From an uncultured Pelagibacteraceae bacterium (lineage in GTDB: Bacteria; Pseudomonadota; Alphaproteobacteria; Pelagibacterales; Pelagibacteraceae): a stretch of DNA of 64,000 nt. Positions 22,164-49,871 of this stretch are shown here, piece after piece. Positions within the stretch are counted from its first letter, which is position 1. Each line of letters starts with the position of its first letter. The notes under the pieces were generated by a model. The model was not told where the DNA came from, searched no databases, and saw nothing but the letters and a program-made list of their open reading frames with translations. The stretch spans positions 18,339-82,338 of the forward strand of contig CABYZT010000006.1 of assembly GCA_902523515.1 (NCBI GenBank), given 5' to 3'. Made by a program: the position numbers and the translations under genes.

Positions 22164-23138
22164 ATGAAAAAAAGCTTTAAACTATTTTTAGCAGCTGCTT
22201 TTCTAGTAACAGAATTTTTTGTTGTAGCTCTTCCATTAATGATCACATCAGCTAAAGCTGATGGTCATCCAATACAAGCAATTACACACGCTGGTTTTGG
22301 TGGTGGAACTGACGTTACTACTAGAATGATGTTATTAAGAGCAAGAAGAGTCCTTAAGCAAGACATGCAATTAGTAAACAAAAAAGGTGGTGGTGGAGCA
22401 GCATCTATGGACTACATGATGTCATTACCAGCTGATGGAAATCACACTTTAACTTGGACAACAGGTCATGCTGTATCAATGGCTTTAGGTAAAACTAAAG
22501 TTAAGTTAAGTGATATGCAACCACTTGCTAGAGGAACTGATGATCCTCAATTATTTGTTGTTAATTGTAAAAATGATATCAAGGATGCTAAAAAATTCAT
22601 TAGCACACAAAAATCAAAATCACTAAAATATGGAACTACTCATACCGGTGGTATTGATGATGTTAGTGCAATCGCATTTACAAAAAAAGGTGGATTAAAA
22701 GATCCAACTATAGTTGCTTACAAAGGTGTTGCGCCAATTAAAACTAACCTTATCAAAGGAGATATTGACGTAGGTGTTTTAAACTTAGGTGAAGCACTAA
22801 CTGAAATTAATGAAGGTAAACTTTGTGTTTCAGTTGTATTGGCAAATAATAGAATGGCTAAAATTGGGGACTCTCCAACAGCAAAAGAATTAGGTATACC
22901 TGTTTCTTTATCTACTGTTAGAGGTTTCGTAACTAAAAAAGGTGCTCCAGCAGACAGAGTAAAACAACTAGAGGCTGGAATGATGAAAGCTATGAGCCAC
23001 AACTACTACAAAAATTTCTTAACAGAAATTGGTCTTGATGAGACAAGTGTTGTAGGTGCAGATGAATGGGGCAAGCAAATGGAAGAAATGCTTGCTGAGA
23101 TGACTGCGCAGCTTAAAGCTTTAGGTTACATTAACTAA
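22164..23138 (+). CDS. tripartite tricarboxylate transporter substrate-binding protein (TctC)
   Basis: Signal peptide; ITHAGFGGGTDVTTRMM, YGTTHTGGIDDVSAIAF, followed by TctB and TctA. Confidence 0.88.
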   Translation: MKKSFKLFLAAAFLVTEFFVVALPLMITSAKADGHPIQAITHAGFGGGTDVTTRMMLLRARRVLKQDMQLVNKKGGGGAASMDYMMSLPADGNHTLTWTTGHAVSMALGKTKVKLSDMQPLARGTDDPQLFVVNCKNDIKDAKKFISTQKSKSLKYGTTHTGGIDDVSAIAFTKKGGLKDPTIVAYKGVAPIKTNLIKGDIDVGVLNLGEALTEINEGKLCVSVVLANNRMAKIGDSPTAKELGIPVSLSTVRGFVTKKGAPADRVKQLEAGMMKAMSHNYYKNFLTEIGLDETSVVGADEWGKQMEEMLAEMTAQLKALGYIN

Positions 23139-23155
23139 TCAAATTAAAAGTACAT

Positions 23156-23668
23156 TTGAATATGAAAAATGTACAAATACAAAAAAGGGCAAACAAAAGT
23201 TTGCCCTTTTTTTTTAGAGATGAGTTTAGAGTTTCTCTTGTAATTATTTTAATATCTGTAGCATTATTAATCACAACTTTTACTTTTGATGTTGTTCCTC
23301 CAATTTTAAATAGAGGAATACAACCAGCAACATTCCCAAAAGCGCTCTTGGTCTTAATAATAGTAATGACATTGTTAATCTATTATTTGGCAACTAAAAA
23401 TCCCTGGAAAGTTGAAAAAAAATTACCAAGATCATTCTTTCTAACTTTATCAAGTTTTGTTATTTTTGTAGTAGTTTCTAAAACACTTGATTTCTTTTTA
23501 GCAATCTCAGCTTTATCTATCTTTGTTTCATATTGTTGGGGAGAAAAAAGATTATTTTATTTATTACTAGTTGGGATTATTTTCCCAATTATTGTTTTTA
23601 TATTTTTTGAAACCATTTTAGGTTTAAGATTTCCCCCAGGAATAATTACTAACATTTACTATAGTTAA
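23156..23668 (+). CDS. tripartite tricarboxylate transporter small membrane subunit (TctB)
   Basis: Small 4-TM protein between tctC and tctA; RGIQPATFPKALLVLI. Start uncertain: TTG 23156 or ATG 23162, both upstream of an internal terminator-like hairpin. Confidence 0.85.
   Translation: MNMKNVQIQKRANKSLPFFFRDEFRVSLVIILISVALLITTFTFDVVPPILNRGIQPATFPKALLVLIIVMTLLIYYLATKNPWKVEKKLPRSFFLTLSSFVIFVVVSKTLDFFLAISALSIFVSYCWGEKRLFYLLLVGIIFPIIVFIFFETILGLRFPPGIITNIYYS
23181..23215 (+). terminator. intrinsic terminator/attenuator-like hairpin inside the 5' coding end of tctB
   Basis: AAAAAAGGGCAAAC-aaaa-GTTTGCCCTTTTTT, 14-bp perfect stem running into a 9-T tract; coding frame reads RANKSLPFFF. Confidence 0.85.
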
Positions 23669-25150
23669 ATGGATAATTTATTATTAATGCTGGCACCACT
23701 TTTCAGTTCTAAACTATTATTAGTTTTATTTTTTGGAACTTTATTTGGTTTGATATTGGGTGTGTTGCCAGGGTTAGGACCAACAACAGGTGGAGCATTG
23801 ATTTTACCTTTCACAATGACTCTAGATCCATTATCTGCAATTGTTTTATTAACTTCTATTTATTGTGCAGGAACCTATGGTGGTGCAATAACTGCTGTAC
23901 TTATTAATACACCAGGGACCCCAGCAGCTGCAGCTACTTGTTTAGATGGCTATCCTTTAGCACAAAAAGGTGAAGCTGGAAGAGCTTTAGGTATGGCAAC
24001 AGTCTCAAGTACTGCTGGAGGTATTTTTAGTGTCGTTATATTAGTTTTCTTTGCTCCTATACTAGCACAACTTGCTTATGAGTTTGGTCAGCCAGAATAT
24101 TTTGCATTAGCAATATTTGGTTTAACGATGCTTGCTTCAATAGGTGAAGGTAGTCCAATTAAAAATTTAATCGCAGGTGCATTTGGAATATTGATTTCTA
24201 CAGTTGGAAAAGATTTTATGACTTCAATCGACCGTTTTACTTTTGGGATCAATGAGTTAACTGAAGGGATAGGATTTATACCAGTAGTGGTTGGACTTTT
24301 CGCAATGAGTGAAATGTTAACTCAATCGACTTTAATCAATCAAGTGTTTAACAGAATAGCTTTAAAAGCAATTAAGCTTCCTAGCAAAGATGATTATAAG
24401 AAAACTTGGAAAACAATACTACGATCAAGTGGGATTGGATCATTTATTGGAGTTCTTCCTGCAGAAGGTGGAACAGTTGCGTCTTTAATTGGTTATTCTG
24501 AAGCAAAGAGATTTTCAAAAAATCCAGAAGAATTTGGAAAAGGATCTATTGAAGGCATTGCTGGTGCTGAGGCTGCAAATAACGCAGCCACAGGTGGTGC
24601 GATGGTTCCAACATTAGCGCTAGGTATTCCTGGTAGCGCAACAACAGCGGTTATACTTACGGGATTGATTATTCATGGTGTTAGACCTGGACCAGATTTG
24701 TTTAGAGAGCAGCCAGATTTCTTATATGGAATTTTTGGCGCCATGCTAATAGCTAATATCCTTTTTTTTATTTTTGGATTTTTTGGAGCAAAAATATTTG
24801 CAAGAATTACTTTAGTACCTAATAAAATCTTATGGCCAATGATATTTGCAGTTTCAGTATGTGGAACTTATTCTCTAAATCAATCCATAATAGATGTTTG
24901 GATAATGTTATTTTTTGGAGTGCTAGGTTTCTTTATGAGAAGATATGGTTTTTCAGTAGTACCAGTAATTATTGGATTAATTTTGGGTGAGTTAGTTGAA
25001 GGAACTTTAAGACAATCTCTAGTTATATTTGATGGTAATTGGCTAATGTTTTTCACAAGACCGATTGCTTTAACATTCTTTATTTTGTCTTTAATTGCTT
25101 TGGCTTTTCCTTTAATAAGATCGAGAAAATTAAAAAAAAATTATGATTAA
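23669..25150 (+). CDS. tripartite tricarboxylate transporter large membrane subunit (TctA)
   Basis: GTLFGLILGVLPGLGPTTGGALILPFT and YGGAITAVLINTPGTPAAAAT TctA signatures. Confidence 0.95.
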   Translation: MDNLLLMLAPLFSSKLLLVLFFGTLFGLILGVLPGLGPTTGGALILPFTMTLDPLSAIVLLTSIYCAGTYGGAITAVLINTPGTPAAAATCLDGYPLAQKGEAGRALGMATVSSTAGGIFSVVILVFFAPILAQLAYEFGQPEYFALAIFGLTMLASIGEGSPIKNLIAGAFGILISTVGKDFMTSIDRFTFGINELTEGIGFIPVVVGLFAMSEMLTQSTLINQVFNRIALKAIKLPSKDDYKKTWKTILRSSGIGSFIGVLPAEGGTVASLIGYSEAKRFSKNPEEFGKGSIEGIAGAEAANNAATGGAMVPTLALGIPGSATTAVILTGLIIHGVRPGPDLFREQPDFLYGIFGAMLIANILFFIFGFFGAKIFARITLVPNKILWPMIFAVSVCGTYSLNQSIIDVWIMLFFGVLGFFMRRYGFSVVPVIIGLILGELVEGTLRQSLVIFDGNWLMFFTRPIALTFFILSLIALAFPLIRSRKLKKNYD

Positions 25151-48149: not shown

Positions 48150-48425
48150 ATGAACAAAAAACAACTAATTGCTAAGCTTTCTGGCTCATTAAATTTGAGC
48201 AAAGCAGATGCTGAGCGAACTTTTGATACAATTACCAACACTATTTTAGATGCTCTAAAAGGTGATGATTCAGTAAAAATTGCTGGATTTGGTACGTACA
48301 AAGTAGCTAAGAGAAAAGCAAGAGTTGGAAGAAACCCAAGAACTGGTGAGCAGATTCAAATTGCTGCTTCTCAAAAAGTAAAATTCTTACCAGCTAAAGC
48401 TTTAAAAGAAGTATTCAACAGATAA
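48150..48425 (+). CDS. hup: HU family DNA-binding protein
   Basis: MNKKQLIAKLSGSLNLSKADAERTFD, GFGTYKVAKRKARVGRNPRTGEQIQIAASQKVKF. Confidence 0.96.
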   Translation: MNKKQLIAKLSGSLNLSKADAERTFDTITNTILDALKGDDSVKIAGFGTYKVAKRKARVGRNPRTGEQIQIAASQKVKFLPAKALKEVFNR

Positions 48426-48436
48426 TATTTTTTTTT

Positions 48437-48475
48437 AACAGCCCTAAACGTTTTTTTAATACGTTAGGGCTGTTA
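48437..48475 (+). terminator. strong stem-loop in the hup 3' UTR (no T-tract after it)
   Basis: AACAGCCCTAAACGT ... ACGTTAGGGCTGTT, one-base bulge; followed by ACTATA. Confidence 0.55.
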
Positions 48476-48569: not shown

Positions 48570-49871
48570 ATGACTAAATTTATAAAAAAAATATCCGCAC
48601 CAGTTCTTAGTTTAATATTTTTATTAAACATGAGTAGTGCGGGTATGGCAGAGACAACAGTTTCTGCTGAGGTACAAGCTATATTCAACTCACTATTATT
48701 TTTAATGTGTGGTTTCATGGTCATGTTCATGGCAGCGGGTTTTGCGATGCTAGAATCTGGCATGGTAACTTCTAAAAGTGTTTCTGTAATCTGTGCAAAG
48801 AACATTGGTCTTTACTCAATTGCCGGAATTATGTTTTGGTTATTTGGATATAACTTAGCGTACGGAATACCAGAAGGTGGATATATTGGAACATTCACAC
48901 CTTGGTCTGATGCAAGTTCAGTCGATACTGGATATGCTGATGGGTCTGATTGGTATTTTCAAATGGTTTTTTGTGCAACAACAGTTTCAATTTGTTCAGG
49001 TGCAATGGCTGAAAGAGTAAAACTTTGGCCTTTCTTTCTTTTTGCAGCTATCTTATCTGGAATTATTTATCCAATCGTTATGGGTTGGCAATGGGGTGGA
49101 GGCTGGTTAGCAGAACTAGGCTTCTCTGATTTTGCTGGTTCGACATTGGTACACTCAACAGGTGGTGCAGCTGCTTTAGCAGGTATCATGTTATTAGGTG
49201 CTAGATATGGAAGATTTGGAAGTAAAGGTGAGGCGAAAGCTATAAAACCTTTTGCTGCTTCTTCTATTCCATTAGTAACAGTTGGAGTATTTATTTTATG
49301 GCTAGGTTGGTTTGGATTTAATGGTGGATCTCAATTAGCTATTGGAACATTCGATGATGCTGTAGCTGTATCAAGTATTTTTATTAATACTAATCTTGCT
49401 GCTGCTGGTGGTGTAATGGCCGCTGCAATAATCACAAGATTAATGTTTGGTAAAACAGATGTAATTCAAATGTTAAACGGAGCAATTGGTGGTCTTGTAG
49501 CTGTAACAGCTGAACCATTAGCACCATCGCCATTAGCGGCTATTTTCATAGGTGCTGTAGGTGGTTTAATCGTTGTATTTGGAACGAAATTACTTTTTAG
49601 TTTCAAACTTGACGATGTTGTAGGTGCAATCCCTGCCCACATGTTTGCAGGAATATGGGGAACATTGGCAGTGCCATTAACAAACACTGACGCTTCGTTC
49701 AGCGCACAATTAATTGGTGTGTTGTCGATTAACATCTTTGTATTTGTGGTGTCATATATTGTGTTCTCAATTATGAAGGCTACTTTTGGAATTAGGTTAA
49801 GTAAAGAGGCCGAAGCTAAAGGTACTGACGTAACTGAAACAGGTGTAATAGCATACGCAATACGAGACTAA
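48570..49871 (+). CDS. amt: ammonium transporter
   Basis: FNSLLFLMCGFMVMFMAAGFAMLESGMVTSKSV, DFAGSTLVHSTGGAAALAG, GWFGFNGGSQLAI. Confidence 0.96.
   Translation: MTKFIKKISAPVLSLIFLLNMSSAGMAETTVSAEVQAIFNSLLFLMCGFMVMFMAAGFAMLESGMVTSKSVSVICAKNIGLYSIAGIMFWLFGYNLAYGIPEGGYIGTFTPWSDASSVDTGYADGSDWYFQMVFCATTVSICSGAMAERVKLWPFFLFAAILSGIIYPIVMGWQWGGGWLAELGFSDFAGSTLVHSTGGAAALAGIMLLGARYGRFGSKGEAKAIKPFAASSIPLVTVGVFILWLGWFGFNGGSQLAIGTFDDAVAVSSIFINTNLAAAGGVMAAAIITRLMFGKTDVIQMLNGAIGGLVAVTAEPLAPSPLAAIFIGAVGGLIVVFGTKLLFSFKLDDVVGAIPAHMFAGIWGTLAVPLTNTDASFSAQLIGVLSINIFVFVVSYIVFSIMKATFGIRLSKEAEAKGTDVTETGVIAYAIRD

Follow-up and report, generated by a model that had tools for sequence, protein, structure and literature searches.

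The first codons of tctB, which encodes the small membrane subunit in a tctCBA operon of a Pelagibacter-like member of the abundant marine SAR11 bacteria, contain a terminator-like hairpin (H2) that has persisted over a long span of evolution and through which cells probably make far more binding protein than membrane channel. As the comparison of related loci shows, selection on this hairpin acts at the level of the RNA and not of the encoded peptide. The favoured reading, to which a probability of roughly 0.6 is assigned, is that H2 fixes the 3' end of an mRNA carrying tctC only, by leaky termination at this site combined with protection of the 3' end, and so raises TctC over TctB and TctA.

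The tctCBA operon and its two hairpins

The operon lies in a 64-kb window (the whole stretch of DNA that was analysed) and unites TctC, TctB and TctA domains, all scoring over the Pfam cut-off, which identifies its product as a tripartite tricarboxylate transporter (TTT). Its genes and the elements at the tctC-tctB junction are as follows.

22164-23138, forward strand: tctC, periplasmic binding protein of the TTT family (Pfam TctC PF03401, E 7e-19)
23150-23157, forward strand: 5' arm of hairpin H1, GTACATTT, between tctC and tctB (core GTACAT invariant in 72/72 relatives, in a spacer that otherwise varies)
23162-23164, forward strand: tctB start codon ATG, in the H1 loop (invariant in 100 distinct coding sequences)
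23162-23668, forward strand: tctB, small membrane subunit, 168 aa (Pfam TctB PF07331 from residue 24, E 9e-12)
23167-23174, forward strand: 3' arm of H1, AAATGTAC, tctB codons 2-5 (codons AAT and GTA without synonymous change; part of the minimum-energy fold)
23181-23194, forward strand: 5' arm of hairpin H2, AAAAAAGGGCAAAC, tctB codons 7-11 (from sequence and fold; compensatory changes in relatives)
23199-23212, forward strand: 3' arm of H2, GTTTGCCCTTTTTT, tctB codons 13-17 (from sequence and fold; compensatory changes in relatives)
23207-23215, forward strand: T9 tract, read as Phe-Phe-Phe codons, the predicted 3' end of a terminated transcript (T-run kept in relatives)
23669-25150, forward strand: tctA, large membrane subunit (Pfam TctA PF01970, E 1e-159)

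H2 is a perfect 14-bp stem, in which 23181-23194 pairs with 23199-23212 around an AAAA loop, and it begins 42 nt past the tctC stop codon (23136-23138) and 16 nt past the tctB AUG. Six residues of the T9 tract form the outer A-U pairs and three remain beyond the 14-bp stem; since those six are paired with a run of A, the most fitting description is an 8-bp GGGCAAAC/GTTTGCCC stem with U9 directly after it. Intrinsic (Rho-independent) terminators are recognised by a G+C-rich stem of approximately 5-14 bp with a short loop, followed directly by a U-rich tract, and H2 displays this anatomy in conserved form, with an 8-bp core inside a 14-bp stem, a 4-nt loop and U9. A first-pass annotation, made from the sequence alone, had described a 14-bp stem with a 9-T tract soon after the tctC stop codon and inside the tctB frame. 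Its sequence and coordinates are confirmed, and the case for the hairpin is stronger than was stated there; the frame is open throughout (MKNVQIQKRANKSLPFFFRDEF), and no in-frame ATG, GTG or TTG occurs between the hairpin and the first membrane segment.

The predicted folding energy of H2 is -18.2 kcal/mol (z -4.0), with 1 of 200 shuffled sequences being equally stable; when it is taken together with the upstream hairpin H1, over the stretch from the tctC stop codon into tctB, the z-score reaches -5.7 and none of 200 shuffles is as stable. Folding of 40-nt segments on both strands of the whole 64-kb window placed H2 among the most stable sites, and of the window's strong terminator-like hairpins in the forward direction, four in number, it alone lies within an ORF. 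Comparison of the whole window with Rfam returned no match at or above the gathering threshold, those below it being terminator-like chance matches. The most stable 40-nt structure of the window is found at 48436-48475 (TAACAGCCCTAAACG...CGTTAGGGCTGTTA), where the T-run precedes the stem on the forward strand; it is flanked by what we take, from their translations, to be a gene for a small HU-like DNA-binding protein (48150-48425) and an ammonium-transporter-like gene (48570-49871).

The tctB start codon at 23162 has been kept without exception, both in the 130 loci examined and in a set of 100 distinct coding sequences. The upstream TTG at 23156, chosen as the start by the ORF finder, reads TTA, CTC, TTT or TTC in relatives and has been rejected on account of this variation. 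Indels between the ATG and the TctB domain are all multiples of three, including the 3-nt loop insertions relative to the window sequence seen at three loci (L109, L122 and L124), and the distance from the tctC stop codon to the ATG is kept short, at 18-28 nt. The invariance of the ATG implies that H2 encodes part of an 18-residue tail (MKNVQIQKRANKSLPFFF) before the TctB domain, and since the Pfam domain begins only at residue 24, the hairpin-encoded tail lies ahead of it. The invariant ATG and the frame-keeping indels set H2 beside the terminators that lie within translated codons, such as those of pyrBI and the amino-acid leaders, and they bear out the earlier claim that the hairpin is translated within tctB. 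That claim had been correct in finding no start codon after the hairpin; the true start at 23162 had been overlooked, as had H1. At one locus (L131, G112:C10), the tctB frame is broken after 84 residues with both hairpins intact, which may reflect a recent pseudogene or a sequencing error.

In the minimum-energy structure, H1 is formed by the pairing of 23150-23157 with 23167-23174, which places the tctB start codon in its loop. Among 72 distinct relatives, the loop between the 6-bp arms ranges from 11 to 19 nt and the core arms are invariant; variable spacing of the arms together with an invariant non-coding 5' core is more readily explained by a stem in the RNA than by a DNA operator, whose spacing would be fixed. 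No covariation was found in H1 within the genus, because H1 is invariant there. In the two other genera considered below, the start codon falls within an unrelated 9-bp hairpin at one locus (L178) and the start-codon hairpin is weak at the other (L179). A role for H1 as a genome-wide operator or repeat has been rejected, the pattern GTACATT..AATGTAC being present once in its own genome and once in each of the other searched relatives that hold it; in those checked it stands at the tctB start, a match in G019 aside. As read from the sequence, tctC has AGAGGGA ahead of it and the tctB ATG has no evident Shine-Dalgarno-like sequence, which would fit a dependence of tctB on ribosomes arriving from tctC.

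Selection on H2 acts on the RNA

The core pairs of H2 are intact in all 72 distinct junctions, and the T-tract comprises nine T in 60 and eight T in 6 of these 72 relatives. When 100 distinct tctB genes were aligned by codon, the synonymous diversity over the hairpin came to 0.02-0.03 (16-codon windows), against a gene median of 0.32 and a lowest value elsewhere of 0.21. The frozen codons include the rare AGG, CCC and AAC; in the remainder of the gene, AGG is used 19 times against 360 for AGA, and CCC accounts for 66 of 900 Pro codons. The Phe codons of the T9 tract are never TTC, a codon that serves for about 14% of the Phe residues in the other parts of the gene.

Compensatory change has also been detected. 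In a MAFFT alignment of 46 sequences, four H2 pairs have changed on both sides, a count that stands for a few independent events plus two outgroup genera, the relatives being many but closely related, with one genome per species; shuffles gave 0.7 and none of 500 reached 4. The replacements seen in divergent members among the 72 junctions are C-G to A-U (in two instances), A-U to C-G and A-U to G-C, and pairing is lost when the partner is slid along the alignment. MAFFT misplaces the H1 5' arm and the divergent locus L130, and the pairs were therefore recounted from anchored motifs. An alignment of SAR11 junctions had been put forward in the first-pass annotation as a check on the hairpin, and its outcome is favourable on both counts, with covariation in the stem and FFF codons kept without TTC.

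An equivalent hairpin is present in two other genera of the same family (L178 and L179), whose TctB is approximately 45% identical to the one studied here. In these, the hairpin follows 26 nt of coding sequence from the ATG, compared with 25 nt here, and stands in a different codon phase; the encoded peptide is KKGGFLSALF or KKGRFNAALF, compared with KRANKSLPFFF here, and the AAAAAGGGC...GCCCTTTTT pairing is kept. The presence of the same structure in a different phase and with a different peptide argues that the RNA has been selected and not the peptide. Of all the comparisons, this shift in codon phase points most clearly to a peptide that follows the RNA. Divergent copies within the genus (L125-L130) likewise have an altered peptide with the pairing kept. 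The most divergent of the same-genus copies, L130 (G222), has a long H2 stem with just three T after it; termination may have been lost there and the hairpin kept.

Junction hairpins elsewhere and the possible mode of action

Hairpins have been found at other junctions between binding-protein and membrane-subunit genes, in loci taken from sequence searches. Sister SAR11 TctB families (L133-L137) carry a GGGGG/CCCCC-type hairpin in the intergenic tctC-tctB spacer, and in four further loci (L138, L139, L180 and L181) a hairpin of 10-14 bp without a U-tract lies within tctB codons 8-20. The stems of L180 and L181 are wholly different in sequence, and those of different genera are unrelated. In L140-L142 and in L001, which belongs to the same genome as the window, a T-run hairpin holds the likely GTG start of tctB in its 5' arm and the first tctB codons in its loop and 3' arm. 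At four TRAP dctP-dctQ junctions of the own genome (L173-L176), a strong hairpin stands just past the dctP stop codon, in most cases with a T-run, which suggests that the genome as a whole tends to place hairpins after binding-protein genes. No dctP-dctQ stem-loop was described in the papers searched. About a third of 29 alphaproteobacterial TctB loci have a strong junction hairpin, mostly intergenic and mostly without a U-tract, the proportion being approximate because the TctB starts in this sample are uncurated. Little of the U-tract is left in L130, and the TctB families represented by L133-L139 and L180-L181 have none. Since some of the homologous hairpins lack this tract, their common function may not need termination. 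What the tctC-tctB junction shares with the malE-malF type is a stable hairpin after the binding-protein gene, conserved across relatives.

According to the favoured reading, the element would set the ratio of binding protein to channel in the TTT operon. H2 with its U-tract would end most transcripts, or would constitute the protected 3' end once the distal part has decayed, giving a stable tctC-only mRNA, and a minority of transcripts would be read through to yield TctB and TctA. Because H2 sits in the first tctB codons, it is selected as RNA, and the TctB tail tolerates any peptide so encoded. Attenuation after the binding-protein gene, as first suggested from the sequence, is plausible on this comparative evidence, and fits the recurrence of junction hairpins in TTT and TRAP operons. 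In E. coli, terminators more than approximately 27-30 nt past a stop codon have been found to act at full strength, and translation starting 30 bp before a terminator took away just ~10% of its efficiency (PMC4824070). If SAR11 behaves like E. coli, the distances of 42 and 16 nt would predict termination at near-full strength. The further suggestion of the first-pass annotation, that translation of tctB promotes readthrough, is not favoured, as the same position data argue against a large effect (PMC4824070).

The weakest step of the mechanism concerns H1, which probably keeps the tctB start shut until a ribosome reaching the end of tctC frees it. With the start closed in this way, tctB would be coupled to tctC, and less translation would be wasted on terminated, stop-less transcripts. 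Transcripts ending within an ORF lack a stop codon, and upstream expression was halved in a construct of this type (PMC4824070); it is proposed that a start codon closed by H1 would reduce this cost. Pelagibacter also has a tmRNA for ribosome rescue (PMC2704228).

The main rival is protection from decay, since some homologous hairpins have no U-tract. H2 would in that case be purely an mRNA-stability element, as at malE/malF, blocking 3'-5' exonucleases after tctBA cleavage without stopping the polymerase. In keeping with this, hairpins without a U-tract occupy the corresponding junction in further SAR11 TctB families and elsewhere among the alphaproteobacteria, and E. coli offers precedents that often lie in coding regions (PMC5927463). 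However, protection alone would need neither the U9 kept in this clade nor Phe codons that are never TTC, and a terminator of such canonical form should affect the polymerase (PMC4824070), which leaves this explanation doubtful, if still the best of those set against leaky termination with 3'-end protection.

A broader proposal is somewhat less probable again. It holds that the start-codon hairpin and the translated terminator work jointly as a compact cis-regulatory RNA switch that no other operon of the genome has, that a ribosome on leaving tctC determines both whether tctB is opened and whether transcription goes on, that terminated transcripts are deliberately stop-less, and that the design arose more than once in SAR11 transporter operons. 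A ribosome-gated attenuator, in which a ribosome translating tctB, or one coming off tctC, blocks the folding of H2 as in the pyrBI leader, so that readthrough depends on translation, and in which H1 sets the rate of initiation and could answer a signal, is more unlikely still. The position of the start codon within H1, the short distance from the tctC stop codon to the ATG and the maintenance of the hairpin in frame would all suit such a device. Against it, terminators that lie within the initial 100 bp of a gene evade the ribosome in E. coli, with the loss of ~10% at 30 bp after the AUG given above (PMC4824070), and the sole antiterminator candidate, found by eye in tctC, is unconserved. This candidate (GGGGCAAGCA, codons WGKQ), complementary to the H2 3' arm, was rejected, with GGT in 92 and GGC in 28 of 121 sequences.

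An ordinary intergenic terminator, with TctB starting downstream at a non-canonical codon, would resemble the intergenic hairpins of the sister TctB families (L133-L137) and of the TRAP operons, but is very improbable given the invariant ATG at 23162, the indels in multiples of three up to the TctB domain and the lack of a conserved start codon after the hairpin. Least credible of all is that the RANKSLPFFF tail, near-identical in close relatives, is conserved for a function of its own with the hairpin as a by-product, as synonymous sites are frozen as well, the divergent same-genus copies alter the peptide yet keep the pairing, and the other genera shift the codon phase.

Relation to known systems

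A survey of Pelagibacter RNAs (PMC2704228) contains no tct motif, and no earlier description of the element was found in the literature searched. Together with its recurrence at TTT and TRAP junctions, the element offers a concrete, testable answer, in sequence, to the question of how the ratio of binding protein to channel is set. It also shows how the N-terminus of a membrane protein can have its sequence dictated by RNA structure, and advises caution both in calling start codons downstream of terminators and in reading frozen codons as protein conservation.

An internal terminator in the coding region of arfA gives rise to a stop-less mRNA. A Rho-independent terminator inside the coding region has the same consequence in brfA (PMC6881298). 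In both, the terminator is near the 3' end of the gene and the protein is a sensor for ribosome rescue, whereas here it lies at the 5' end and would leave an 18-residue stub. The pyrBI leader attenuator (Roland et al., discussed in PMC4824070) is likewise an intrinsic terminator in translated codons that a ribosome could in principle suppress; there, a short leader peptide is translated and pausing synchronises ribosome and polymerase, while the tctB element lies in mid-operon and encodes the N-terminus of a membrane protein. The synthetic construct W48 of Li et al. (PMC4824070) also has a terminator shortly past the start of a second ORF, with efficient termination and stop-less transcripts. 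That construct is artificial and lacks a start-codon hairpin, and its upstream expression was halved, a cost which H1 might reduce here.

The closest resemblance is to the operons in which the binding-protein segment of the message outlasts the remainder. In five ABC transporter operons of E. coli, the stabilised segment was always the binding-protein gene, and the protective structures were often in coding regions (PMC5927463). Likewise, in malE-malF of E. coli, with its intercistronic REP hairpins, and in other binding-protein operons with differential decay (PMC5927463), the gene for the binding protein is followed by a conserved hairpin, which is believed to favour expression of that gene over the membrane subunits. 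The tctB hairpin differs in being located in the first codons of the downstream gene, in having a U-tract and in being paired with a start-codon hairpin. Operon tuning of the malE/malF type is already known, and the tctB element is a variant of that kind.
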